Assembly (NCBI GenBank): GCA_022361535.1
Contig: JAKSAU010001165.1
Location: 1-10,427, forward strand
Source of the DNA: Desulfobacterales bacterium
GTDB lineage: Bacteria; Desulfobacterota; Desulfobacteria; Desulfobacterales; Desulfobacteraceae
Direction of reading: 5' to 3'
DNA: 10,427 bases
Shown piece by piece: positions 1 to 10,427 of this stretch. Position numbers and translations under genes: made by a program. Numbering within the stretch: position 1 is the stretch's first letter; every line of letters begins with the position of its first letter. The notes under the pieces are model-generated. The model was not told the origin of the DNA, made no database searches, and worked only from the letters and a program-made list of their open reading frames with translations.

Positions 1-530
1 GGTGCCAGAAACTGATTGATCAGGTAACCATGTGCCCCATGAAGTTCAATAAAATCAAACCCTGCTTCCCTGCAGCGCCTCGCAGACTCTGCAAAACAAT
101 CGACAAGATCTTTGATTTCATCTATTTCCAATGCACGAACCTCTCCCTTGACCACAGCTGGAGCCGGTATGGCTGAAGGAGCGACCTTTTCAGGCAAATA
201 AGACTGACGCCCGCCATGCATAAGCTGAACCCCGAACCAGGTATCATATTCTTTTACCCGGGCGACCATTTTTTTCAAAGAAGGAATACAGGAATCATCG
301 TACATCTGGGGCAAATCCGGCAATTCCTGCCCGCCGGGATGGACGCTGCCGCCACCAACAAGCATCATTCCAACCCCACCCTTTGCCCTGGCAACAAAGT
401 ATTCAATAAGCTGGTCAGTGACATGACAATTATCATCTACACCAAAATTAATGCTCATGGCAGACATGAGCAGACGGTTCTTAACATCCATATGTTGTAT
501 TTGAATCGGACTAAAGAGATCTGACAGCAT
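1..530 (-). CDS. OYE-family NADH:flavin oxidoreductase, N-terminal 176 residues (runs off left edge)
   Basis: Old-yellow-enzyme (FMN TIM-barrel) reductase, expected to reduce activated C=C bonds of enones, enoates or dienoyl-CoA with NAD(P)H in the cytoplasm. The translated part begins MLSDLFSPIQIQHMDVKNRL, the usual opening of this family. It then shows the first barrel strands, the VQLMHGGRQ segment (about residues 101-109) and the hallmark IELHGAHGYLINQFL block (161-175), whose His164 and His167 fit the substrate-binding HxxH. The ATG at 530-528 is preceded by GAGGAAG at a 7-base spacing, which supports this start. The 3' part lies outside the window, so it is not possible to tell a short (about 350-residue) OYE from a long FadH or 2-enoate-reductase form with a C-terminal Fe-S/flavin part; the HGAHGYL block fits the latter group well. 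It lies 116 bases after the nitroreductase stop on the same strand and may be co-transcribed with it. The exact substrate is unknown. Confidence 0.9.
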   Translation of the reverse strand, partial: MLSDLFSPIQIQHMDVKNRLLMSAMSINFGVDDNCHVTDQLIEYFVARAKGGVGMMLVGGGSVHPGGQELPDLPQMYDDSCIPSLKKMVARVKEYDTWFGVQLMHGGRQSYLPEKVAPSAIPAPAVVKGEVRALEIDEIKDLVDCFAESARRCREAGFDFIELHGAHGYLINQFLA

Positions 531-646
531 AGGCGCACTTCCTCTTCTTGGCAATGGTTAAGACCTGACCTTCATTTAATGGCAGACTTTTTTGCCAGAG
601 ACAAGGATTTTTAGACATATACCGGCCAGGGAAACGCGCCGGGTTC

Positions 647-1312
647 TTAACCTGGATAGCCAACCGTTTGCGCCAGAATAATTCTTTGGTCATCACGCAA
701 ATTCATCTTTTTACCAAGTGTTGGCCGGTCTATCCAATCCCTTACGACCGTACCCAATCCAAATGCAGCACAAAATAGATAAACATTTTGGCTGATGCAA
801 CCGGCATCCACGCCGGCATAGAACAACTTTTTTTCATCAGGCCTGTTGCCAAGCCTTGAAAAATCAGCCACATAAACCAAATTTAACGGGGCAGTTGAAA
901 CAAATTGTTGGATTCCGCAAGCACTTCGGATATCTTCGCCCACAACTTGAACCAGCTGGTGAAAATACGGATCAAACAAAAAAAGCCCATCTTCCTTGGC
1001 TGCATAGATTTCAATTTCCTGGCTGTTCTTGGGTGAAGGTGCAGTCCGGTATCCGGTTTCAGGGCGGTTAATACCAAATGCGGCCCATAGCAAATTTGAC
1101 AGGGTCTGTGCCGGCAAAGGCTTTTTGCTGAATGAGCGGGTGGACCTCCTGTTTTTCAGCGCATCCATCAAAGAGGTCTCATCTTGGGCTAATGGCGCGG
1201 GTAATGCGTCTGCCTTTTTCTTCTCCGCAAATAACGAGGGTGGTTCTAATGCGGATACAACAGCGGCCCCTGCTGCCGAACTCAAAAATTTTCGCCTGGT
1301 AATTCCCGACAT
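647..1312 (-). CDS. Tat-exported SagB/ThcOx-type nitroreductase-family flavoprotein
   Basis: Nitroreductase-fold FMN oxidoreductase of 221 residues. The N-terminus (residues 1-30) has a twin-arginine signal: TRRKFLSS, then an Ala/Val-rich stretch and a likely cleavage near SLFA-EK. This implies export of the folded, FMN-loaded enzyme to the periplasm. The mature part has the FMN-phosphate motif NRRSTRSF (54-61), the SagB-like LSNLLWAAFGIN (71-82), and APSPKNSQEIEIY (91-103). A C-terminal helix follows (GVDAGCISQNVYLFCAAFGLGTVVRDWID, 167-195), which normally packs on FMN and the dimer partner. The ATG at 1312 is preceded by AAGGAAG at 6 bases. It starts 60 bases after the diguanylate cyclase stop and may share its transcript; the OYE reductase follows. 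The known family includes peptide-azoline oxidases and uncharacterised reductases. No cyclodehydratase or precursor peptide is nearby, so a bacteriocin role is unsupported. The substrate is unknown. Confidence 0.88.
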   Translation of the reverse strand: MSGITRRKFLSSAAGAAVVSALEPPSLFAEKKKADALPAPLAQDETSLMDALKNRRSTRSFSKKPLPAQTLSNLLWAAFGINRPETGYRTAPSPKNSQEIEIYAAKEDGLFLFDPYFHQLVQVVGEDIRSACGIQQFVSTAPLNLVYVADFSRLGNRPDEKKLFYAGVDAGCISQNVYLFCAAFGLGTVVRDWIDRPTLGKKMNLRDDQRIILAQTVGYPG

Positions 1313-1372
1313 ACTGAACTTCCTTATTAATTTAATTGCATTATCTTTGACTTTTTAAGATGAAAGTACCCG

Positions 1373-3154
1373 TCACCCAATAGATCTAACCGTATTGCGC
1401 CCAGCCTTTTTTGCAGCATAAAGCCCTTGATCAGCCACCTTGATAACATCTTCTATATCATCCCCGCCAACCTCATAAACAGAGACACCCAGGGATATGG
1501 TAATTTTTACACTTTCCGTTTCAAGTTTCATCACCATATTCATTTCAACGTGGCGACGGATCTCCTCAGCTCTGTTCATTGTATGCGACAGGCTGGTGTT
1601 CGGCAGGATCAAAATAAATTCCTCTCCGCCATACCTGCAGACGACATCTTCATCCCTTATCCCTCTTTGAAGCATCTCGGCAAGCTTTTTTAATACCGTA
1701 TCACCTGCATCATGCCCATATGTATCATTAAAATTTTTGAAATGATCAACATCCGCCATTATAATACCAATTGAGAACTTCTCCCGCTTTGCCCGAGAAC
1801 TTTCCCTTTTTAGTGTTTCCTCCATGAAACGTCTGTTGAATAATCCAGTCAGCGGGTCTCGGACGGATTCCTGCTGAAGAGTATGGCGAAGCTCAAGGTT
1901 ACTTAAAAAAAGCGTATACGCCTGTATCAGATTTTCACCTATCCTCTGCTTTATAGAAAACTGTTTTTTGTCTTTGGTACGGACTACGACATGAAGCGCA
2001 CCCGATAGGTTCCCCTGAACAATTACAGGTACGCAAAAACCACGAGCCATGGTTTTATGGTTATGCTCACAATTAGCTTGAGTTTCCGGATTTAAACAAG
2101 CGTGTACCTGTTTGGTTTTTAAGGCGCGACACTCATCCACTCCCGAAGCGAATTTAGGAAAATATCCTTCTCCCCAGGTTACTATAGTCTCTATTTTACC
2201 GGTCTCAGGGTTCAGAATTGAAATCCCTCCATGATCACCAGTTAAAAGAGCTTCACACGCGCTAATAAGAACCGAAACAGTGTCTTCTTTGTTCTCACAT
2301 AACTGAAGTTCCTCAACATATCGTCTAAAAAGCTCTGATTGCCTATTTCTTGTGGCAAGGCTCTCTATCGTCTCCTCAAGTTTTATATTGGTTTCTTCCA
2401 GCTTATGAGTTCTTTCAGCCACTTTTCTTTCAAGATCCTGGTAAGACTCCTTCAGTTTGTGACTCATACTATTTATGGATTTGGCAAGCCATCCGATTTC
2501 GTCATTTCTATCTGACTGTCCAGATGTGGTGAACTCTCCTACTGCAATCTCTTCGGTTATCTGTGTCAGGCGGATAAAAGGCGATACAAAACTTTTATGG
2601 ATGAAAAAGCTTACTGCCAAGGCAATTATAATCAACTCCAAAATAAAAACTACCTGAATATATTGTGATGCCTTTTCCATGCGTGAAAGCACTGGGTTAG
2701 GATCAATACCTATTTCCACCCTGCCGATTGTATGCCCTTCATCTACAATATCCCGTTTAAAAATCAGTATATTTTCCGGTACATGCTTTTCTATCCTGGG
2801 CAGCTGTCCGATCTGGTGAACCAAAGGATTGTCTTGGGAATCATAGATCTCACAATAGGTAATCAATTTACCTTTTTCCAAACGGGAAACAAAACTCTCA
2901 AGTTGGTATATACTGAATTTACGGATAGGAAAAATACTGATCTCGGCCACAAATTCGCTGGTTTCAACACCATACTCGTTAAGCTGATCCAGCATATACT
3001 CACGTTGTTTATTAACAGCAAATTGTCCGATAAAAATAAGAATAAACCCTAAGATCAACACAATACCTACAGAGACTTTGACGCTTAGTTTTTGCCAAAA
3101 TTTGGGCCGAAACGTCTGAATACTATCACGTTTTTTTTGCTGAGAATCAGTCAC
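1373..3154 (-). CDS. Membrane diguanylate cyclase: periplasmic sensor-HAMP-coiled coil-GAF-GGDEF
   Basis: Predicted inner-membrane enzyme making c-di-GMP from two GTP. Counting from the GTG at 3154 (593 residues): TM1 about 26-47, periplasmic domain about 48-165, TM2 about 166-186, HAMP about 187-240 (ending NDEIGWLAKSINSM), coiled coil 240-272, GAF about 275-425 and GGDEF about 432-593. The cyclase has DPLTGLFNRR, the metal-binding MADVDHFKNFNDTYGHDAGD, an intact GGEEF active site (509-513) and the inhibitory RxxD site (Arg500, Asp503), so it should be active and product-inhibited. The periplasmic part (EIYDSQDNPLVHQIG) resembles PAS-like or CHASE8-like sensors. The GAF has a Cys/His cluster (Cys342, His351, Cys353, Cys362, His364, His366, Cys374). 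An in-frame GTG also exists at 3160, but GGAG lies 1 base from it and 7 bases from the GTG at 3154, so the latter is preferred. The start overlaps the upstream BMP gene's stop by 8 bases, implying translational coupling. Confidence 0.93.
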   Translation of the reverse strand: MTDSQQKKRDSIQTFRPKFWQKLSVKVSVGIVLILGFILIFIGQFAVNKQREYMLDQLNEYGVETSEFVAEISIFPIRKFSIYQLESFVSRLEKGKLITYCEIYDSQDNPLVHQIGQLPRIEKHVPENILIFKRDIVDEGHTIGRVEIGIDPNPVLSRMEKASQYIQVVFILELIIIALAVSFFIHKSFVSPFIRLTQITEEIAVGEFTTSGQSDRNDEIGWLAKSINSMSHKLKESYQDLERKVAERTHKLEETNIKLEETIESLATRNRQSELFRRYVEELQLCENKEDTVSVLISACEALLTGDHGGISILNPETGKIETIVTWGEGYFPKFASGVDECRALKTKQVHACLNPETQANCEHNHKTMARGFCVPVIVQGNLSGALHVVVRTKDKKQFSIKQRIGENLIQAYTLFLSNLELRHTLQQESVRDPLTGLFNRRFMEETLKRESSRAKREKFSIGIIMADVDHFKNFNDTYGHDAGDTVLKKLAEMLQRGIRDEDVVCRYGGEEFILILPNTSLSHTMNRAEEIRRHVEMNMVMKLETESVKITISLGVSVYEVGGDDIEDVIKVADQGLYAAKKAGRNTVRSIG

Positions 3155-4151
3155 GTCCACTCTCCGGCTCTAAAAAATTGGTTACTTTTATCGTTCCCGA
3201 AATAATATCCTTTTTTATTTTTTGTAAATTCTCCAGTATGAAAGCCGGAATTATATGCTTTGTATATTTCATCTCGCTCAACCGGATCCCCCCGTTGCCA
3301 AGGCTGTATGAAATTGTACCAGGGGTAAACCCCCCTTTTTGGACTTTGGCGAGTTCCTGGTAAACAGCATGGTCCAATTGTTTGATAACACTTGTAAGCA
3401 CGTATCCTTTGGCCATATGATCCTGATCGCGATCTACACCGATAACATATTTTTTTTCAATACTTGCCGTTCGTATCACTCCGTTTCCGCTTAGTCCGGC
3501 CACGGCAAAAATTACATCCACGTTGTTATCGTACATTTTTTTTGCCAAGCGGGAAGCCTTTGAAGGATCATTAAAACCGGAATAGTCCGGAAGTTTGGAA
3601 ATAAACTCAACCGCAACATCAACATTTGGTGAGGCATATGCAACCCCTTCGTTAAAACCGACAAGAAATGCCTGAATTACATCAATATCAATGGCCCCGA
3701 TAAAACCAACTTTTCCGCTGCGTGTAAACCACCCGGCAAGTGCTCCTGCTAAAAAAGAGCCTTCATGCTGTCCATAGATAATTGATTTTACATTAGGGTA
3801 ATTTCCCCCGTAGAAATCATTGGCTATAATTTTAACTGTCGGAAATCGATCAGCATAATTTTCAGTGAGAGGTAAAAACTGGTCTCCATTCAAAACGATT
3901 TGATCAGCATTGCTGTTCACCAATCCAAGAAACAGCTGGTCCATATCTTTTTCCTGTTCCCATTCCCGGACGATCAATTTGTGATTGAACTCTTTTACTG
4001 CCTTGGCCATTCCTTTGTAAGTTGCATCATTGAACGATTCATCTCCAAGTCCGCCAGAGCCGGTCAAAAATCCAATGTTTTTTGAATTCACCTGTACCGG
4101 AATAAAAAGTAGAAAAACAATCAGCCAAATACTTGCTTTTGATAAACGCAC
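3147..4151 (-). CDS. BMP-family (PnrA/TmpC-like) periplasmic binding protein, second paralogue
   Basis: Basic-membrane-protein family substrate-binding protein, 334 residues, a normal length. It has a Sec signal peptide at about 1-23 with no lipobox Cys, so it is probably a soluble periplasmic protein. Family landmarks: GLGDESFNDATYKGM (34-48), IIANDF (108-113), IIYGQHEGSFLAGALAGW (124-141), GKVGFIGA (146-153), VIFAVAGLSGNGVI (213-226), VIGVDRDQDHMAKGY (236-250) and LTSVIKQLD (252-260). Known members bind purine nucleosides or other small ligands and feed ABC transporters. No permease or ATPase is found here; the next gene is a diguanylate cyclase overlapping this stop by 8 bases. The start is GTG at 4151, with AAGGAG 5 bases upstream. 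It closely resembles the preceding BMP gene, from which it is separated by 84 bases carrying a strong inverted repeat; a tandem duplication is likely. The ligand is unknown. Confidence 0.92.
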   Translation of the reverse strand: MRLSKASIWLIVFLLFIPVQVNSKNIGFLTGSGGLGDESFNDATYKGMAKAVKEFNHKLIVREWEQEKDMDQLFLGLVNSNADQIVLNGDQFLPLTENYADRFPTVKIIANDFYGGNYPNVKSIIYGQHEGSFLAGALAGWFTRSGKVGFIGAIDIDVIQAFLVGFNEGVAYASPNVDVAVEFISKLPDYSGFNDPSKASRLAKKMYDNNVDVIFAVAGLSGNGVIRTASIEKKYVIGVDRDQDHMAKGYVLTSVIKQLDHAVYQELAKVQKGGFTPGTISYSLGNGGIRLSEMKYTKHIIPAFILENLQKIKKDIISGTIKVTNFLEPESGRD

Positions 4152-4205
4152 TTTAACTCCTTATTAACTATGGTATAGTCAGCCTTTGATTAGCAGTGGT
4201 ATTTC

Positions 4206-4247
4206 CAAAAGCCGTTACAAACTAAACTGTTGAGGTTACGGCTCTTG
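4206..4247 (-). repeat. Inverted repeat (10-bp stem) overlapping the stop of the first BMP gene
   Basis: In the minus-strand transcript, CAAGAGCCGT (4247-4238) pairs with ACGGCTTTTG (4215-4206) over 10 pairs with one G-U wobble, around a 22-base loop. The 5' arm encodes the last residues of the first BMP protein and reaches its TAA stop. The 3' arm is followed by GAAATACC, not a U-tract, so it is not a standard terminator. It may stabilise the upstream message or reduce read-through between the paralogues; that role is inferred. Confidence 0.6.
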
Positions 4248-5258
4248 TGACAGGATATTCGTTACAACAATCTGCCCTGAAATTATCTTTTCTTCGAGGT
4301 CTTTGAGGCGGTTGATAATATCTGAGCCGATTAACTCACGTGTATATGTCATGGGCGAAAGCGCAACCCCCTTTTCCTTTAGGCCGTAAAAATGTACTCC
4401 TGGTTCAAACTCGCCTTTCATGATAATTGCAAGTTCCCTGTAAGTAGCTATGTCAAGCCGCTTCATGACACTTGTTAAGATATATCCTTTGGCCATATGG
4501 TCCTGATCCGCATCCACCCCGATGACGAATCGTTTTCTCTCTAAAGCAGCCTGTATGACGCCGTTTCCGGACAATCCTGCCACTGTAAAAATTATATCTG
4601 CATCAGCCAGATACATCTCTTTTGCCTTTAAGTAGGCAAAGCCTGGATTGTCAAATCCGGATCGGTGATCATCTGACCCACCGATATATTCTGATATGAT
4701 TTCGATCTTTTTATTTACGTAAAAAGCCCCCTCCTCAAACCCTTTGAAAAATGCACGAATAATAGGCATGTTTTCGCCACCAATAAAACCTATCTTTCCG
4801 GTATTGGTTTTCCAGGCCGATAAAGCACCGGCAAGAAAAGCACCCTCATGTTGCCCGTAAACAGTTGATACCAAATTATCACCTGAGGTTACGGCAAAAT
4901 CGTTAAGGACAAATTTTACATGGGGATTTTTCTTGGCTGCTTTTCTTATTATGTTGCGAAATTCCCATCCGTTAGCAACCACAACCGTGGCACCGCGATT
5001 TAATAAAACCTCCAGACTGGCTTCCCTGCTGTTTTCCGTATTATCTGTTGTTTTTTCCCGGATCAGGGCAAATTTAAATTCATTTCTGGCCTTCACCATA
5101 CCTGCATAGGTCATATCATTAAAAGATTGATCACCCAGCCCGGACTGGGGCATAAGAAAACCAACGACTTTTGCAGCCATACAATTTGAACACAAGAATA
5201 TGGCGGCAACAAAGAGATAAACTATAATCCAGGCTGAAACTGTTTTCCAGAATCTCAT
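4236..5258 (-). CDS. BMP-family (PnrA/TmpC-like) periplasmic binding protein, first paralogue
   Basis: Basic-membrane-protein family binding protein, 340 residues from the ATG at 5258. That ATG follows GGAGGT at about 9 bases and begins directly with a signal peptide (MRFWKTVSAWIIVYLFVAAI, cleavage near CMAA-KV). An upstream in-frame GTG at 5324 would add 22 residues ahead of the signal peptide and has no well-spaced ribosome site, so it is rejected. Landmarks match the neighbour: GLGDQSFNDMTYAGM (40-54), FVLNDF (116-121), VYGQHEGAFLAGALSAWK (133-150), GKIGFIGGEN (154-163), FTVAGLSGNGVIQAA (224-238), VIGVDADQDHMAKGY (245-259), LTSVMKRLD (261-269) and a matching IISGQIVVTNIL tail. A Cys-rich FLCSNC near the cleavage site does not match a lipobox well. 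The first gene of the BMP-BMP-cyclase cluster, it is preceded by a long non-coding stretch that should hold the promoter. A transport role lacks a partner here; a ligand-sensing role is inferred. Confidence 0.92.
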   Translation of the reverse strand: MRFWKTVSAWIIVYLFVAAIFLCSNCMAAKVVGFLMPQSGLGDQSFNDMTYAGMVKARNEFKFALIREKTTDNTENSREASLEVLLNRGATVVVANGWEFRNIIRKAAKKNPHVKFVLNDFAVTSGDNLVSTVYGQHEGAFLAGALSAWKTNTGKIGFIGGENMPIIRAFFKGFEEGAFYVNKKIEIISEYIGGSDDHRSGFDNPGFAYLKAKEMYLADADIIFTVAGLSGNGVIQAALERKRFVIGVDADQDHMAKGYILTSVMKRLDIATYRELAIIMKGEFEPGVHFYGLKEKGVALSPMTYTRELIGSDIINRLKDLEEKIISGQIVVTNILSQEP

Positions 5259-5754
5259 TAATTGAAGACCTCCGGCTATAGTATTTTTTACACTCAATTT
5301 TATCATACCAATCCTCAAAAGCACCTCTTGGCTGAAAGCGAAAAGAGCGCCTGTTTTAATGAAACAAATTTTCGAGAATTGCGATAAATATAGTGATCAT
5401 GTCCTTAACCTAATAGTACCATCCAGAACCATTTATGCAACCTTTTGGATAGTCAAAACTAATCTTGGCAAGAGCTGACGTTCCTGAAAAAAATGAAGGT
5501 ATTGTGATTTGAGCACTTAGGCTCGATTGTTCTAAGAAGAAGGCATCAGGAGGATTTTTTACAAAAAATTCAGCAGCCGTTTCTTAATATAAACGGGCCG
5601 GTCTTTGTATATGGGATGCCTTTTTTCACCAAGCCAATCGGAAATTTATTTTGGAAATGACACACTAATGCAGGCGCGCATCATAGGTTAAGATGATTTT
5701 TATCGTTAAGACATGAATCAAGCAGGTGAAAATTTAGCGCAGGCTGTGTTGATT
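5259..5754. other. Long intergenic region between PilZ and BMP genes, no recognisable gene
   Basis: About 500 bases with stops in every frame and no ORF with a convincing start, RNA gene, insertion sequence or terminator. The minus strand has a 57-codon stop-free frame (5583-5413) without a start codon. It reads ETAAEFFVKNPPDAFFLEQ and onward, which I do not recognise; it may be a decayed gene or chance. The part nearest the BMP gene holds a candidate extended -10 promoter and a possible 14-residue leader peptide. This is the expected location of the control region for the BMP-BMP-cyclase cluster. Confidence 0.6.
5413..5440 (-). promoter_or_regulatory. Candidate promoter of the BMP-BMP-cyclase cluster (extended -10)
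   Basis: On the minus strand, TGGTACTAT forms an extended -10 (TGN-TACTAT, hexamer at 5413-5418). A weak -35-like TTGCAT lies 16 bases upstream (5435-5440). Transcription would start near 5405, giving a leader of about 150 bases before the first BMP gene. The match is modest and rests only on the motif and its place ahead of the cluster. Confidence 0.28.
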
Positions 5755-6405
5755 TCAGACAAAGTCCTCTATTGAAAAAATAAAATGCAGCAGCGGGGTT
5801 ATAAACTCATCGGTGGAATCCTTAAACTTGGCACCGATTGAAAGTGTGCCGCTCTCCCGTCTAATGTTCCTGACAAAAGCCAAAGATCCGACCTCACCGG
5901 GACACCCGGGAAAATTGCAGTATAATCTGAGCGCATCGCCTTCTCTGAAGGTAATATTATGCTGAAAAACAAATTGGCATCCTACTTTGCTGATATCGCT
6001 GACCATTACCGGGAATGACATCTTTTTAGCCTCAACCCGTCCTGGAATGACCACTTGTCTGCGGCGATTACGTCTCAGTTCCCTTTTTTGAACTACTTTG
6101 GGGTATTCCAGGGCAAGGGCTCGGATGGGCGTTGTAATCATTTCTATCACACTTGACTGAAATGCAAATACAGAGCCTTCGTATAGATATTTAACCACCA
6201 TTTTGTTGCCCGGATATAATTTGCTTTGAACGCTTTTATACTTTTTGGGCAGGGTAATCAGCATAAACTCATCTTTTAGCAGTCCGATGAATACACTGGT
6301 TACTGAAAAGGTAACACCCTGAATTTCCAGGTAAACGTCTGTCCCAATGTCAATGTAGATTCCTTCAGACTTGTTCAGTTCCAACAGGCCTTCTATATCT
6401 CGCAT
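5755..6405 (-). CDS. YcgR-like PilZ-domain protein, predicted c-di-GMP receptor
   Basis: Cytoplasmic protein of 216 residues with two parts. The N-terminal beta domain (about 12-100: GIYIDIGTDVYLEIQG, FIGLLKDEFMLITLP, ending ALEYPKVVQKREL) matches the flagellar-brake/YcgR N-terminal domain. The C-terminal PilZ domain (about 108-216) has the basic RRNRRR run at 111-116, giving the RxxxR signature, and DISKVG (137-142), giving the [D/N]xSxxG signature. Both c-di-GMP-binding signatures are present, so binding is likely. Family members link c-di-GMP to motility, exopolysaccharide or other outputs; the partner is not evident here. A GTG at 6411 is also in frame, but AAAGGA sits 2 bases from it and 8 bases from the ATG at 6405, so the ATG is chosen. 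It is flanked by about 195 bases upstream and 496 bases downstream, so it is probably transcribed alone. It lies two genes from a diguanylate cyclase. Confidence 0.9.
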   Translation of the reverse strand: MRDIEGLLELNKSEGIYIDIGTDVYLEIQGVTFSVTSVFIGLLKDEFMLITLPKKYKSVQSKLYPGNKMVVKYLYEGSVFAFQSSVIEMITTPIRALALEYPKVVQKRELRRNRRRQVVIPGRVEAKKMSFPVMVSDISKVGCQFVFQHNITFREGDALRLYCNFPGCPGEVGSLAFVRNIRRESGTLSIGAKFKDSTDEFITPLLHFIFSIEDFV

Positions 6406-6454
6406 ATTCACAATCCTTTACCTGTGACAATGAATTGGCGCTTTGCCCAAAGCT

Positions 6455-6518
6455 ATAATAATCAGTTTGATAAACAGAGTTAATTACTAGTAGTATTTGC
6501 TCGCCTGATTTTTGTCAA
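6455..6518 (-). promoter_or_regulatory. Two tandem candidate sigma70-type promoters for the PilZ gene
   Basis: Minus strand. The upstream candidate has a perfect -35 TTGACA (6513-6518), a 17-base spacer and a weak -10 TACTAC (6490-6495). The downstream candidate has TTAACT (6478-6483), a 17-base spacer and a good -10 TATTAT (6455-6460). Either would give a leader of roughly 40-80 bases before the PilZ ATG at 6405. This supports the PilZ gene being expressed separately from the upstream carrier operon. Confidence 0.45.
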
Positions 6519-6600
6519 GAAGAAATGCCCATTCATCAGGACGCTGCACGCCCGTTCGTTTGTCTCAAAGCTTTCATATGCACCTTTATTTGTATACCGG

Positions 6601-8121
6601 TTAAAAGGGACCGAATTTAATGGCAACGGCAATCATTAGAAAAATCATGGACAAGACCGCAATTCCCACCTGCATCTTCCAGGTCCACCTGATCCACTTT
6701 GGATAGGTCACAACGGTAAAGCTCAACCCAATAAGGAGTAGGGCATTGGTGGGAAAAACCATATTGGAAAACCCGTCACCCAGATCAAAGGCGAAAACAG
6801 CAGTCTGTCGTGTCAGCCCTACAATATCTGCCAGCGGTGCGATAATCGGCATGACTAAAAATGCTTTGGCAGATGCAGAAGAAATAAAAAAGTTCAGCGC
6901 CAGGGTGAGCAGATAAATATAAAACGCTGCCTGAAAGGGGTTTGTCCCCTCAATGGCCTGGGATGCATAAAAAAGAATAGTATCCATAACATGCCCCCGG
7001 GTCATGATGTGGGGCACACTCATGGCCATGAGAATCAGCATGATACCTGGCAGCATATTCATGGCCCCGGAAGAAAGTACTTTGAACAACTCTTTCCAGG
7101 AATATCCAATAATCCGCCCGGATCCGGCACCGCCGATAAGAAAAAGCAGTGCCACTGTCGGGAAAGCGGCATCAGAGGGCAGGGCCGGTATCAGTCCGGC
7201 CAACACCATGAACACGATCGCAATACCCAGGCAAACTCCGAACCAAAGTGCGGCTTTTACTTTTTTCGGATCGCTGTCCGCGCGGTCCCCAAGAACCTTT
7301 TCTACACTGAAACGGTCCCGAATTTTGCAATCCGCCTCATATACCGGGGATAATGACGGGTCTTTTTCCACTCTTCTTGCGTAGCGGCTGACCATGAAAT
7401 AGCAGAGCAGGTAAGTGGCAATAAAAAATATGATTCTAAACCAGGCACCTGAAAACAAAGGCAGGTCAGACAGCTCCTGTGCCACAGCAATGGTAAAGGG
7501 GTTGGTTACGGCCGCAGAAAACCCGAATGTAAGGGCCAGCATACTCATGCCAAGTCCGGTCAGACTGTCCCATCCCAGGGCCAGGGACATGGGAACAATG
7601 ATCACAATCAGGGGAACTAAAGCCTCATATACCCCGACAAAAGCTGCTAGGAACATCATGATAAATATAATCACACCCAGCAACCGGTATTTATTTGCTT
7701 TAAACCGCGCAACGGTCCATGCCAAAAGTTCCTGCAAAACCCCGCCTTTTTCCAGGACCGTGAATGACCCGCCTAAAAAGATCATGAACAGGGAAAGCAC
7801 CAGGATCATCAGCCAGTTATCTCCCCAAATCACCTCAACAGGTGCGGTAAACCAGCGCCAAACCGGGTATCCGGATTCATCCAAATATTGGAATGAATCT
7901 GCTTTCACCGCCATTCTGCCGTCAATTTGCACTCTTTCGTAAGCACCGGCAGGAATCCATTGGGTAAGAAAACCCGAAAAAACAATGAGGAGCAACAAAA
8001 TCCCGAATGCCGTAAGAAAAGGCTTGAGCCCTATTTTCAGCATGGACTCGTCGCCCGAGTCTGTTTGAGATGGTGCGACGGAATCCGCTTCAGTCCGGGC
8101 AGGAATGGTGGCATCTGTCAT
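6601..8121 (-). CDS. YfcC/DcuC-family membrane carrier (C4-dicarboxylate or amino-acid/peptide type)
   Basis: Polytopic inner-membrane protein of 506 residues, a typical length for the YfcC branch of the DcuC-like ion-transporter superfamily. After a polar cytoplasmic tail (1-30) come about 11-12 hydrophobic segments, e.g. 34-54, 103-120, 147-163, 167-183, 190-206, 228-244, 292-312, 320-336, 353-369, 397-414, 455-472 and 485-503. Two family hallmarks are the hairpin-like motifs FGFSAAVTNPFTIAVAQ (199-215) and SASAKAFLVMPIIAPLADIV (415-434), followed by DLGDGFSNMVFPTN (446-459). The ATG at 8121 follows AAGGA at 7 bases. It begins 18 bases after the M20 peptidase stop, clearly one operon. Known family members are secondary carriers of C4-dicarboxylates or basic amino acids, but specificity cannot be read from sequence. 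The peptidase neighbour suggests import of a peptide or N-acyl amino acid that is then hydrolysed (inference). Confidence 0.88.
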   Translation of the reverse strand: MTDATIPARTEADSVAPSQTDSGDESMLKIGLKPFLTAFGILLLLIVFSGFLTQWIPAGAYERVQIDGRMAVKADSFQYLDESGYPVWRWFTAPVEVIWGDNWLMILVLSLFMIFLGGSFTVLEKGGVLQELLAWTVARFKANKYRLLGVIIFIMMFLAAFVGVYEALVPLIVIIVPMSLALGWDSLTGLGMSMLALTFGFSAAVTNPFTIAVAQELSDLPLFSGAWFRIIFFIATYLLCYFMVSRYARRVEKDPSLSPVYEADCKIRDRFSVEKVLGDRADSDPKKVKAALWFGVCLGIAIVFMVLAGLIPALPSDAAFPTVALLFLIGGAGSGRIIGYSWKELFKVLSSGAMNMLPGIMLILMAMSVPHIMTRGHVMDTILFYASQAIEGTNPFQAAFYIYLLTLALNFFISSASAKAFLVMPIIAPLADIVGLTRQTAVFAFDLGDGFSNMVFPTNALLLIGLSFTVVTYPKWIRWTWKMQVGIAVLSMIFLMIAVAIKFGPF

Positions 8122-8139
8122 GGTAAATCCTTTTTACGA

Positions 8140-9639
8140 TTAAAGGTGGTAAAAAAGCTCTATATAAAATTCAAGTCCTTTTCTAAGATTCTCCAAAGAG
8201 ACCTTTTCATTCACACCGTGGATGCTTGCTACATCATCCGGGGTGAGAACAAGGGGACAGAATCTTAAGATTTGGCCGGTCAATTCATTATAGTATTTGG
8301 AATCAGTAGATCCGTTAACAAGATAAGGTACCGTGATGACATCCGGATGGGTTTTGGACAGCACTTTGCGTATAAGAGAAAATCCACCGGCATCAATATC
8401 TCCTGCCCGGATCGGATCGTTGGCAGGCCAGTGACCGGCGTCATCCAAGGTCAAACCGCCATCTTTAAGTGTTTTGCGATGCCTTCTCAAGATCATATTA
8501 ATGGTATCGCCAGGAATGATCCTGTGGTTGACAAGGCAGGCAGCCTCCCCGGGCAGTACATTTTCCTGTTCACCGGCTCTGATTACAGTCACTGCCTGGG
8601 TAGTTCTGATCAGGCTGTCTGTCACCCGGTTTTTTGAAAAAATAAACAGGATCAGTGGGCGGGTAAGCCAAAGATTGGCAAATACAATGCCAAGACCAAA
8701 TGATACGTAGGGAACAAACCGCTCCAGCATATTGGACATGACCGGGTCTAAACGGACCGGGAACGGTTTCTCCTCCAGACGCACAATACCTTTTGCCAAC
8801 CGGCCTATTGCGGTCCCCCCTTTGACAGGCATGGACGAATGCCCACTTTCGCCTGTTGCGGTTATCTTAAAAGTTACGAAACCTTTTTCAGCCAGGCCAA
8901 CCAAAGCTGCAGGCCGTTCTTTTAAAAACGCCAGCTGATCCTTTGCAATCACACCGCCTTCGTCCAGCACAAATTCAAACTCAAGTCCGCGCTCCTTGAA
9001 CAAGGCTGCTATTTTCTGGGCTCCATCAATCCCTGCGATTTCCTCGTCCCCTCCAAAGGCGAAGTAGATATCCCGGTCAGGCTGCCATCCTTTTTCCAAT
9101 AGGAACTCAGCTGTTTCCATCTGGAAGGCCAGCTGGCATTTGATGTCTAAGGTTCCACGCCCCCATAGAACACCGTCCTTTACATGGGCGCCAAACGGAT
9201 CTTCATCCCAGGTCTCATCACCTTTTTCTTCTGCCGGTACAACATCATAATGTGCAAGAAAGAGAACGGGTTTTTTCTTTGAATTCTTACCCTTCCAACA
9301 ATATATCAGACCAAAAGCATCGATCATTTCCCGGTCCATTTCGGTATGTACCCGGGGATACATTTTTTCCAATTCTGTTTGGAATTGCTTGAATGTATCA
9401 ATGTCCCGTTTGTTTCGATCGGTCCAGGACACTGTTGGAAGCATTATCATCTTACGAAACCGTTCAACGAAATGGTCAAAATCAGGAAGGGCTCTTTTTT
9501 GAGCCTCCTTATCAGAAGAGAATGCGAGTGCATAGCGTTGTTTAAGTGTCATATACCGGAACAGACAAAAGAAGATCAATCCGGCCACCCCGAGTATCAG
9601 GCAAGCAGCAATCAGGAATACAGGCATAGTACCAACCAT
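8140..9639 (-). CDS. Membrane-anchored M20 metallopeptidase, carboxypeptidase S/PM20D1-like
   Basis: Di-zinc M20 hydrolase of 499 residues, matching the length of the yeast CPS1 and mammalian PM20D1 branch, whose members cleave Gly-X dipeptides or N-acyl amino acids. One N-terminal membrane helix (about 6-27) is followed by R28, K33 and R35, whereas the N-tip has no charge, which favours a cytoplasmic catalytic domain. Metal and catalytic residues are all visible: LAHYDVVP (His130, Asp132), GRGTLDIK (bridging Asp165), GGDEEIAG (catalytic Glu199 with Glu200), VLDEGG (Asp226), GHSSMP (dimer-domain His267) and SIHGVNE (His474). TTQAVTVIRAGEQENVLP (346-363) is the branch's usual lid-to-catalytic junction. 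It is the first gene of an operon with the YfcC-type carrier. A good promoter lies only about 25 bases upstream, and no clear ribosome site precedes the ATG at 9639; an in-frame ATG at 9627 is an alternative. The substrate is inferred to be a peptide or acyl amino acid. Confidence 0.92.
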   Translation of the reverse strand: MVGTMPVFLIAACLILGVAGLIFFCLFRYMTLKQRYALAFSSDKEAQKRALPDFDHFVERFRKMIMLPTVSWTDRNKRDIDTFKQFQTELEKMYPRVHTEMDREMIDAFGLIYCWKGKNSKKKPVLFLAHYDVVPAEEKGDETWDEDPFGAHVKDGVLWGRGTLDIKCQLAFQMETAEFLLEKGWQPDRDIYFAFGGDEEIAGIDGAQKIAALFKERGLEFEFVLDEGGVIAKDQLAFLKERPAALVGLAEKGFVTFKITATGESGHSSMPVKGGTAIGRLAKGIVRLEEKPFPVRLDPVMSNMLERFVPYVSFGLGIVFANLWLTRPLILFIFSKNRVTDSLIRTTQAVTVIRAGEQENVLPGEAACLVNHRIIPGDTINMILRRHRKTLKDGGLTLDDAGHWPANDPIRAGDIDAGGFSLIRKVLSKTHPDVITVPYLVNGSTDSKYYNELTGQILRFCPLVLTPDDVASIHGVNEKVSLENLRKGLEFYIELFYHL

Positions 9640-9658
9640 ATTTAGAGGTTAGGGTTCA

Positions 9659-9819
9659 ATGAGCTATAAGACATACCATATTGCTTTGTCAAGCAGATGC
9701 ATTTAACAAGCAAAATTCACCCCTAGGGTAAAAACTTAGAAAAGATCTTTGAAAAGAGCATTAAAATAATCTGGGAAGACGGAACGATCAGTGAAATTGT
9801 GAAAAGTCCGGCCTGCTAA
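9659..9819 (+). pseudogene. Relic resembling the C-terminal end of a family 3 solute-binding protein
   Basis: This is the only coding-like plus-strand stretch in the window that is not antisense to a gene. Three successive frames read SYKTYHIALS (from 9662), ADAFNKQNSPLG (9693-9728) and KNLEKIFEKSIKIIWEDGT (9730-9786) continuing ISEIVKSPAC to a TAA at 9817-9819. Joined across two frame changes, this matches the usual SBP_bac_3 ending: a 'y-iAFsK' strand, a helix, then an 'i-eDGT-kI' tail. Stops break each single frame (TAA at 9704 and 9729, TAG at 9724), and the rest of the gene is absent. It therefore looks like a decayed remnant. The match is by eye only; a chance resemblance is possible. 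Confidence 0.4.
9663..9692 (-). promoter_or_regulatory. Sigma70-type promoter of the M20-carrier operon
   Basis: Minus strand: a perfect -35 TTGACA (9687-9692), an 18-base spacer and a -10-like TATAGC (9663-9668). It ends 23 bases before the ATG at 9639, so the transcript leader would be only about 16 bases, with no obvious Shine-Dalgarno sequence. It is the best promoter match in the gap and has the right position and direction. Confidence 0.55.
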
Positions 9820-9841
9820 AATAGTTTACTTTCGGCTGCTA

Positions 9842-10427
9842 CTAATTGGAGGAACCCGGATCTATCCGTCGCGACACAATGTCATTTAGAAGTGATTCCA
9901 CCAGGAGCGCAAACCCGGGAGCAGCCTTTTTTCCTGTAAGTATTGATTTTCCCCGGGCTGATTTAAAAAACTTGACGCAAACCTGATGCTGACTTGACGT
10001 CAGTAAAGAAGAAATTCCTTTTTTTACATCTGTATCTTCCTTTACAAGCTCAGGAAGATCCCTTCGGCCGTGGGCACGCCTGCTCATATGTGCATAGTAA
10101 AGAAGGGCCCGGTCCATGAGGATATACAAAAACTGAATATTTTCGTTTGGACCTAATTGAATGCGGTCTCCGCTCACCGGGCCGGACGGCTTTCCCGCCA
10201 GCCGTTTCAGTCCCATGAGGGCAGACCCGGCACCTATGGCGGACCCGATAGCCGTAAATACCCCAAAGCTTAACCCGGCTGCGGCGGCATCCAGAACCAC
10301 ACCGACTGAACCACCAAGTAACGCCCCGACAGTTGCCATCTGCTTTTTGGTTAGCCCAAGCATTTCCCAGGTCTGATCTGAGAAAAGGTCATGGCGAAGA
10401 ATGGAGTATTCAGGCAGGGGATAATCA
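9842..10427 (-). CDS. DUF3482-type protein, C-terminal 195 codons (5' end beyond right edge)
   Basis: The frame is open to the window edge and no start is needed here: codons upstream of the internal ATG at 10363 read DYPLPEYSILRHDLFSDQTWE, which continues naturally into MLGLTKKQMATVGALLGG. The RHDLF...W..LGL block, the small-residue hydrophobic segment (10330-10220 region, rich in GxxxG-like Gly/Ala spacing), GPNENIQFLYILMDRALLYY and RAHGRRD all fit the DUF3482 tail. In most relatives this tail follows an N-terminal MMR_HSR1 GTPase domain, so the missing part is probably a GTPase. The glycine-zipper-like segment suggests membrane association. The stop is TAG at 9842-9844. Function is unknown for the family. 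It is separated by 202 bases from the M20 operon, with a promoter between them, so it is probably a separate unit. Confidence 0.8.
   Translation of the reverse strand, partial: DYPLPEYSILRHDLFSDQTWEMLGLTKKQMATVGALLGGSVGVVLDAAAAGLSFGVFTAIGSAIGAGSALMGLKRLAGKPSGPVSGDRIQLGPNENIQFLYILMDRALLYYAHMSRRAHGRRDLPELVKEDTDVKKGISSLLTSSQHQVCVKFFKSARGKSILTGKKAAPGFALLVESLLNDIVSRRIDPGSSN

Follow-up and report, generated by a model that had tools for sequence, protein, structure and literature searches.

Paired PnrA/Bmp-type binding proteins encoded with a membrane diguanylate cyclase as probable periplasmic co-receptors of a sensor family with swapped outputs

The 10,427-nucleotide stretch analysed here (the window; Desulfobacterales bacterium, GenBank assembly GCA_022361535.1, contig JAKSAU010001165.1, positions 1 to 10,427) encodes on its minus strand two secreted binding proteins of the PnrA/Bmp type, BMP1 and BMP2, followed by a membrane diguanylate cyclase, the enzyme class that makes cyclic di-GMP (c-di-GMP). 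We propose, with a probability of roughly 0.78, that the BMPs are nucleoside-type periplasmic co-receptors of a sensor family with swapped outputs, c-di-GMP being the output here, and that they belong to a subclade that has shifted from transport to signalling. An earlier account made from the DNA letters and the open reading frames (ORFs), the sequence-only reading, had suggested that BMP proteins bind a nucleoside-like ligand and set c-di-GMP output. That suggestion is supported by the comparisons described below, which widen it to a BMP-linked receptor family.

The BMP and cyclase genes

The order BMP-BMP-cyclase is confirmed by the ORFs and by Pfam, which finds Bmp twice and then HAMP and GGDEF (Table 1). 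BMP1 is best taken to start with an ATG at 5258, with a Shine-Dalgarno-like GGAGG upstream, and is separated by 84 bases from BMP2, whose best start, a GTG at 4151, is preceded by AAGGAG. The cyclase is best taken to start with a GTG at 3154, preceded by GGAG, and shares its first 8 bases, GTGACTGA, with the BMP2 stop, an overlap already noticed in the sequence-only reading and present in the sequence. This start predicts 593 residues, the size of a 99%-identical database copy. The overlap makes translational coupling likely, judging from the gene layout; a fused or read-through BMP-cyclase product was dropped, since BMP2 and the cyclase lie in different frames. Neither the ORF list nor Pfam places an ABC (ATP-binding cassette) permease or ATPase, of the BMP type or any other, among the window ORFs, as had been claimed for the BMP type.

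Table 1. Positions of the features of the window
Feature	Positions	Strand	Description and evidence
BMP1	4236-5258	-	secreted PnrA/Bmp-type binding protein, 340 residues; PF02608 E 1.4e-58
BMP2	3147-4151	-	secreted PnrA/Bmp-type binding protein, 334 residues; PF02608 E 6.2e-51
Membrane diguanylate cyclase	1373-3154	-	593 residues: transmembrane segment (TM) 1, periplasmic sensor domain, TM2, HAMP, GAF-like, GGDEF
Periplasmic sCache/PAS-like sensor domain of cyclase	2663-3016	-	alignment, structure model, linkage counts
HAMP relay of cyclase	2447-2605	-	PF00672 E 1.2e-9
GAF-like cytoplasmic stretch of cyclase (weak)	1958-2287	-	GAF_2 E 0.052, under curated cut-off
GGDEF catalytic domain of cyclase	1394-1864	-	PF00990 E 8e-52
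8-base overlap of BMP2 stop and cyclase start	3147-3154	-	GTGACTGA
PilZNR-PilZ (YcgR-like) protein	5755-6411	-	PF12945 E 4e-16, PF07238 E 6e-7; RRNRR and DISKVG motifs
Nitroreductase-family protein	647-1312	-	twin-arginine-like N-terminus
DcuC/YfcC-like carrier and M20 peptidase	6601-9639	-	adjoining genes

Both BMPs match PF02608 over nearly the full domain, with 173.6 and 198.7 bits against a gathering cut-off of 24.1, and they are 46% identical to each other. A signal peptide was judged by eye in BMP1, and a lipobox scan of that protein found no lipobox-like motif. At E <= 0.001, Pfam gives Bmp only, plus a sub-cut-off Peripla_BP_4 match in BMP1, and does not identify either protein as a polyamine-type binding protein. 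NCBIfam scores them at 63-66 bits against a putative B6 BMP family, a weak match given its cut-off of 400.

The cyclase has an intact GGEEF active site with an RxxD site five residues upstream (RDED-VVCRY-GGEEF), as had been read before, within a full GGDEF domain (PF00990, 175.7 bits), from which c-di-GMP synthesis is predicted; Pfam finds no EAL domain in it. Its periplasmic part, about 118 residues between TM1 and TM2, had been called PAS-like. A structure model of the sensor (predicted local distance difference test, pLDDT, 81.3; predicted template modelling score, pTM, 0.54; 15 sequences) bears this out: a small beta unit is flanked on either side by long helices that run through the membrane into HAMP, with WalK, CitA and the periplasmic domain of a LapD-type protein among its best partial matches in the PDB. 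The core of the domain reads TYCEIYD here and AFCEIYD in most relatives. The GAF-like stretch on the cytoplasmic side holds four Cys within about 40 residues, and one relative of the cyclase (P0125) carries PF13185. With the first 425 residues as query, 14 database proteins matched in total: five GGDEF proteins (57-99% identity), three PAS-histidine kinases (45-48% identity, with 55-62% query coverage) and six weak matches.

Linkage to sensors and separation from ABC transport

Relatives of the three genes recur together. A 98% copy of BMP1 is present in the protein database, and BMP1 relatives of 70% and 69% identity come from contigs equal in size to those of cyclase relatives. Sizes shared by relatives of BMP1, BMP2 and the cyclase are 11916 (P0102, P0004, P0122) and 146872 (P0135, P0005, P0125); relatives of BMP2 and the cyclase share contigs of 5860, and two BMPs and a kinase contigs of 7013. 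That proteins on equal-sized contigs come from one contig is thus strongly, if indirectly, indicated.

BMP relatives were taken from named genomes as the best 80 of 494, so that the set is not randomly sampled, and from two class-level searches covering 242 and 291 genomes, in which 10 and 13 genomes had a match at E <= 1e-60. In many genomes of the class-level searches, for the BMPs as for the sensor domain below, only part of the first-look candidates was scored, so that misses are possible. Matches in the class-level searches were bimodal, at 422 bits and above or at 269 bits and below. Downstream of most high-scoring BMPs lies a two-TM sensor; downstream of most low-scoring ones lie genes for an ABC ATPase and permeases. 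Altogether the loci hold 119 different BMPs (members of a pair counted apart, the two of the window included), of which 42 score at least 355 bits, here called window-like, and 77 score lower.

Neighbours were counted within four same-strand ORFs, and for 11 of the 42 window-like BMPs the view was limited to 3.5-kb loci (about 1.5 kb to either side). On this count a sensor stands beside 37 of the 42 (36 by script and L266 by the sensor-domain search), and ABC ATPase or permease genes adjoin none; an adjacent ATPase with permeases, the mark of a BMP-type ABC nucleoside transporter, was found neither in the window nor at any of the 42. Adjoining ABC genes in relatives had been named in advance as evidence against the sequence-only reading. 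Among the 77 lower-scoring BMPs, 47 have an ABC ATPase or permease and none has a sensor by script; one of them (L261) adjoins a 71-bit sensor match (L247) that the ORF script overlooked. In a maximum-likelihood tree of the 119 BMPs, one branch (Shimodaira-Hasegawa-like approximate likelihood ratio test, SH-aLRT, 97) splits all 37 sensor-linked BMPs from all 29 motif-labelled ABC rows. The sensor-linked side also holds eight unlabelled rows, L261 included. The tree comes from a quick search without bootstrap, with four long end branches flagged.

The linked sensors differ in their outputs. Histidine kinases were found by domain scan in nine loci (L117, L119, L120, L121, L124, L125, L127, L002, L006), an Hpt-HATPase protein in L007 and SpoIIE phosphatases in L122 and L010. 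The next gene downstream encodes a receiver-GGDEF protein in L002 and a receiver-DUF3369-HD protein in L006. Two kinase versions are thus followed by candidate c-di-GMP enzymes, although degradation of c-di-GMP by the HD protein of L006 is a guess. Common to these sensors is the periplasmic domain of the cyclase, with 23-36% identity in nine loci and 46-77% in seven database relatives over 118 columns; an AFCEIYD-like core is present in most alignment rows, L006, L007 and L010 being the exceptions. The sequence-only reading had taken the cyclase as the partner of the BMPs. The linkage holds; the partner, however, is the periplasmic domain, which sits more often on a histidine kinase, and GGDEF is one output of this family.

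A model of the sensor domain, built from 14 domains, was searched against four classes (242, 291, 129 and 149 genomes). Every one of the 25 matches above 150 bits adjoins a BMP gene; ten of these are rows of the model and 15 are independent. The linkage is therefore conserved, the lack of such conservation having been the other outcome set beforehand as contrary. Below 90 bits, where loci were available for only some matches, a BMP stands at 1 of the 73 loci examined, and most of these matches are taken as generic sCache/PAS sensors. Four more matches of 90-150 bits without a locus in the four class searches include one (L259) with a BMP. A fifth search, of nine genomes, gave four sensor-domain matches, three with a BMP (the model rows L269 and L270, and L272 at 74.5 bits) and one without, in a short locus (L271). 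From the BMP stop to the longest sensor start the distance is -14 to 174 bases in 28 of 31 linked pairs and 534 to 650 in three. Over the same 31 pairs, BMP and sensor distances correlate with r 0.92, a value reached in 0 of 2000 permutations, but common ancestry of the species gives the same signal, and no contact is deduced from it. None of 36 pattern-matched stretches of viral contigs held a BMP relative, and in 168 plasmid records all matches were below 60% identity.

Three loci deserve separate mention. In L122 (2431-4267) the BMP beside the SpoIIE sensor has one internal TAG in a longer frame and an SBP_bac_3 protein just upstream. L137 (8211-10001) encodes a 597-residue protein with a BMP half and about 250 residues of Cache-type look, as judged by eye, possibly a natural BMP-sensor fusion. 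In L254 (3553-9574) a 1260-residue protein carries a diverged sensor domain from the 90-150-bit band; a PBP_like_2-OmpA protein lies two genes upstream and no BMP is present, a hint, from this one scanned locus, that the domain is paired there with another binding-protein partner.

Permeases elsewhere in the genome were sought in 19 sensor-bearing genomes with a BMP-type permease profile (A5). Six of them (G002, G004, G006, G009, G010, G662) gave no match at E <= 1e-20, and all three control genomes matched at 9e-178 or better, one of which (G220) is itself represented in the profile. Five of the six genomes without a match (G004, G006, G009, G010, G662) have only sensor-linked BMPs by PF02608; G002 has one additional weak BMP.

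Several observations weigh against the proposed co-receptor role. Apart from the window, the GGDEF version of the sensor is represented by just five database proteins, including a 99% copy, and the linked sensors scanned for domains are mostly kinases. Five of the 42 window-like BMPs (both of L116 and those of L118, L126 and L009) have no adjacent sensor. Among the 15 independent strong sensor-domain matches, 14 come from one class, and at 90-150 bits a BMP adjoins three of the ten loci examined and is absent beside seven, so the sensor domain is usable without a BMP. The permease profile draws seven rows from the wider group to which the window belongs and a single row from a Bacillota; it could therefore overlook a distant permease, and the permease-negative genomes are drafts of unknown completeness. 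A permease match occurs elsewhere in 13 of the 19 sensor-bearing genomes, and double use in transport and sensing is therefore possible there. Finally, the GAF-like segment could be the main input of the cyclase. As for the sensorless BMPs themselves, those of L116 (8106-10144) adjoin a glutamate synthase gene, and the gene in the same position beside the BMP of L118 (8817-9833) equals it in length (1486 residues), with an SBP_bac_3 protein encoded two genes past that BMP.

Ligand pocket, proposed mechanism and alternatives

The structure model of BMP2 has the Bmp fold (pLDDT 93.7), and its top PDB matches are proteins with guanosine, adenosine, uridine, thymidine or inosine bound; in fold alignments BMP2 is 27-29% identical to PnrA, TmpC, BmpD and Lbp. 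The residues in its pocket are D37, F40, N41, D112, F162, F193, D240 and K257. An excerpt of PMC13325309 gives the nucleoside pocket of BmpA as Phe27, Phe151, Phe176, Asp98, Asp225 and Lys242, the equivalents of which in BMP2 are F40, F162, F193, D112, D240 and K257, each also present in BMP1. Both window BMPs thus carry the two stacking Phe, Asp225 and Lys242 (BmpA numbering), the second Phe having been located through the TmpC and Lbp alignments, since the BmpA alignment sets its gap elsewhere. Across the 42 window-like BMPs the stacking positions are Phe in 34 and 40 and Tyr in six and two, with two gaps at the first position, and the equivalents of Asp225 and Lys242 are invariant. Transport-type BMPs retain identical pocket residues, so these support ligand binding and not signalling. 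The ligand of BMP1 and BMP2 is, on these sequence comparisons, most likely a nucleoside. Two points speak against this: the equivalent of Asp98 is replaced by Glu in 15 and by Gly in two of the 42, so that specificity may have shifted in some sensor-linked BMPs, and a survey, in the part available, predicts sugars for nearly all of its Bmp members (PMC9602780).

Since the secreted BMPs are encoded with a c-di-GMP enzyme and their relatives partner other signalling enzymes, they are probably ligand-sensing antennae. BMP1 and BMP2 would be periplasmic ligand-binding proteins from a PnrA/Bmp subclade that moved into signalling. We infer that the loaded (or empty) BMP would dock on the small sCache/PAS-like periplasmic domain of the co-translated cyclase and shift the sensor helices, that the HAMP segment would relay this change across the membrane to alter GGDEF activity in one direction or the other, and that an external ligand, most likely a nucleoside, would in this way set c-di-GMP. 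As for their division of labour, the two paralogues may read two ligands or oppose each other. In the relatives, the same periplasmic domain with its BMP partner would act on a histidine kinase or a SpoIIE phosphatase.

An alternative that we consider unlikely is that the BMP docks independently of a ligand, or for a non-nucleoside, as a structural or repressor subunit, the true signal being a different one such as redox through the GAF-like segment. YfiR, which acts as a repressor on YfiN, offers a parallel. The four clustered Cys of that segment, the variable Asp98 position, the weak NCBIfam match to a B6 family and the predicted sugars would fit such a role. Against it stand the stacking positions, aromatic in 40 (with the two gaps) and in all 42 BMPs, and the invariant Asp225 and Lys242 equivalents, and paired, diverged paralogues fit ligand discrimination better than a scaffold.

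A dual role, in which the BMPs supply an unlinked transporter and also stimulate the sensor, appears decidedly improbable. The maltose-binding protein of Escherichia coli serves both uptake and chemotaxis in this manner, and genomes such as G239 and G278 also carry canonical BMPs or BMP-type permeases; the sensor-linked BMPs, however, occupy their own side of the tree, and the five genomes named above have neither another BMP nor a match to the permease model. That these are ordinary transport BMPs feeding an unlinked ABC importer, with the cyclase downstream by chance or through co-regulation only, would suit the permease matches in 13 of 19 genomes and the PF02608 proteins characterised so far, mostly treated as ABC-type receptors in the portion of PMC13325309 at hand, but is very improbable given a BMP beside every strong sensor-domain match, no ABC gene beside any window-like BMP and six genomes without a permease-model match, five of them without another BMP.

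The proposal that the BMPs are co-receptors has a stronger form, in which a dedicated Bmp/PnrA clade is the sensing half of modular receptors with one docking domain and interchangeable kinase, SpoIIE and cyclase outputs, and in which, through two specificities, extracellular nucleosides, for example from lysed neighbours, would directly set c-di-GMP. For this form we regard the odds as evenly balanced.

Known systems, neighbouring genes and implications

Periplasmic control of a cyclase is known from YfiR-YfiN, in which a periplasmic protein outside the Bmp family acts on a cyclase of HAMP-GGDEF type whose periplasmic domain is small. The sequence-only reading cited this precedent and missed the closer ones, NspS-MbaA, the best-known parallel, and ScrB-ScrC. 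The window also differs from YfiBNR: an assignment of the cyclase to YfiN was rejected, its 149.8 bits against NCBIfam DgcN/YfiN falling below the cut-off of 325, and no YfiR-type Pfam match was found among the nine window ORFs scanned. ScrB-ScrC of Vibrio parahaemolyticus resembles the window in joining a binding protein to a c-di-GMP enzyme, with a different binding-protein family and a bifunctional enzyme. In LuxP-LuxQ and TorT-TorS a class I periplasmic binding protein controls a sensor kinase by touching its periplasmic domain. The Bmp fold belongs to this broad class too, judging by ribose-binding and LacI-type PDB matches; LuxP and TorT are not of the Bmp family, and the periplasmic domains of LuxQ and TorS are of other kinds. 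In NspS-MbaA of Vibrio cholerae, according to an excerpt of PMC8967002, a ligand-detecting periplasmic binding protein, NspS, which binds polyamines, associates with a membrane c-di-GMP enzyme, the bifunctional GGDEF and EAL protein MbaA, and alters its activity. The window is similar in that a binding-protein gene adjoins the gene of a c-di-GMP enzyme, but has two proteins of the unrelated Bmp family, a GGDEF domain without EAL and another periplasmic domain; with neither a polyamine-type binding protein nor a GGDEF-EAL enzyme present, assignment to this system was dropped. PnrA/TmpC, BmpD, BmpA and Lbp share family, fold and pocket residues with the window BMPs, but are regarded as ABC-type receptors, whereas in the window a sensor replaces the ABC genes. 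More generally, binding proteins of several families drive kinases, chemoreceptors and cyclases, as stated in the accessible parts of PMC9602780 and PMC11113362. Open-licence PMC full text, searched with exact terms and judged by titles and abstract openings, yielded no paper in which a Bmp/PnrA protein acts on a histidine kinase or a cyclase.

A separate BMP-GGDEF pair occurs in Clostridium (L051, 6676-9452; L274), where 30 bases part the BMP gene from a following GGDEF gene whose extracellular part is different and longer. It is present in 2 of 194 family genomes, the second being the sole further genome in which a relative was found at E <= 1e-8. The Clostridium BMP lies outside the signalling clade of the tree, and BMP-cyclase pairing therefore probably arose twice. 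L146 (5585-9242) holds a transport-type BMP of 239 bits near which no ABC gene was detected; a same-strand GGDEF gene follows it after 920 bases and a second one lies farther on, a proximity that may be due to chance.

The nine window ORFs scanned with Pfam and NCBIfam all lie on the minus strand. Upstream of the BMPs, in order of transcription, come a DUF3482 gene cut by the window end, the M20 peptidase, the DcuC/YfcC-like carrier and the PilZNR-PilZ gene; downstream of the cyclase follow the nitroreductase and an old-yellow-enzyme family protein (cut). The PilZNR-PilZ gene lies about 500 bases upstream of BMP1, and its product, with motifs presumably of the RxxxR and DxSxxG types, could be a candidate local c-di-GMP effector of the cyclase; neither this gene nor the GAF-like stretch figures in the sequence-only reading. 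The nitroreductase-family gene begins 60 bases past the cyclase on the same strand and may share its transcript. The carrier and the M20 peptidase look like an uptake-and-use pair for a peptide or amino acid. Rfam has no match in the window, and a scan found 18 promoter-like sites (11.7 expected) and three terminator-like sites (4.5 expected), neither count being informative.

To our knowledge, the signals that feed c-di-GMP are mostly unknown. A Bmp family with solved nucleoside complexes offers a short and testable list of ligands for the cyclase and for the related kinases and phosphatases, in BMP-linked sensors that span Desulfobacterota, Halobacteriovoraceae and spirochaete genomes. Many genes annotated as 'BMP family ABC transporter substrate-binding protein' probably encode sensors and not transporters. 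In the part of PMC9602780 available, 13 binding-protein families are counted as driving receptors, and Bmp may join the families known to do so.

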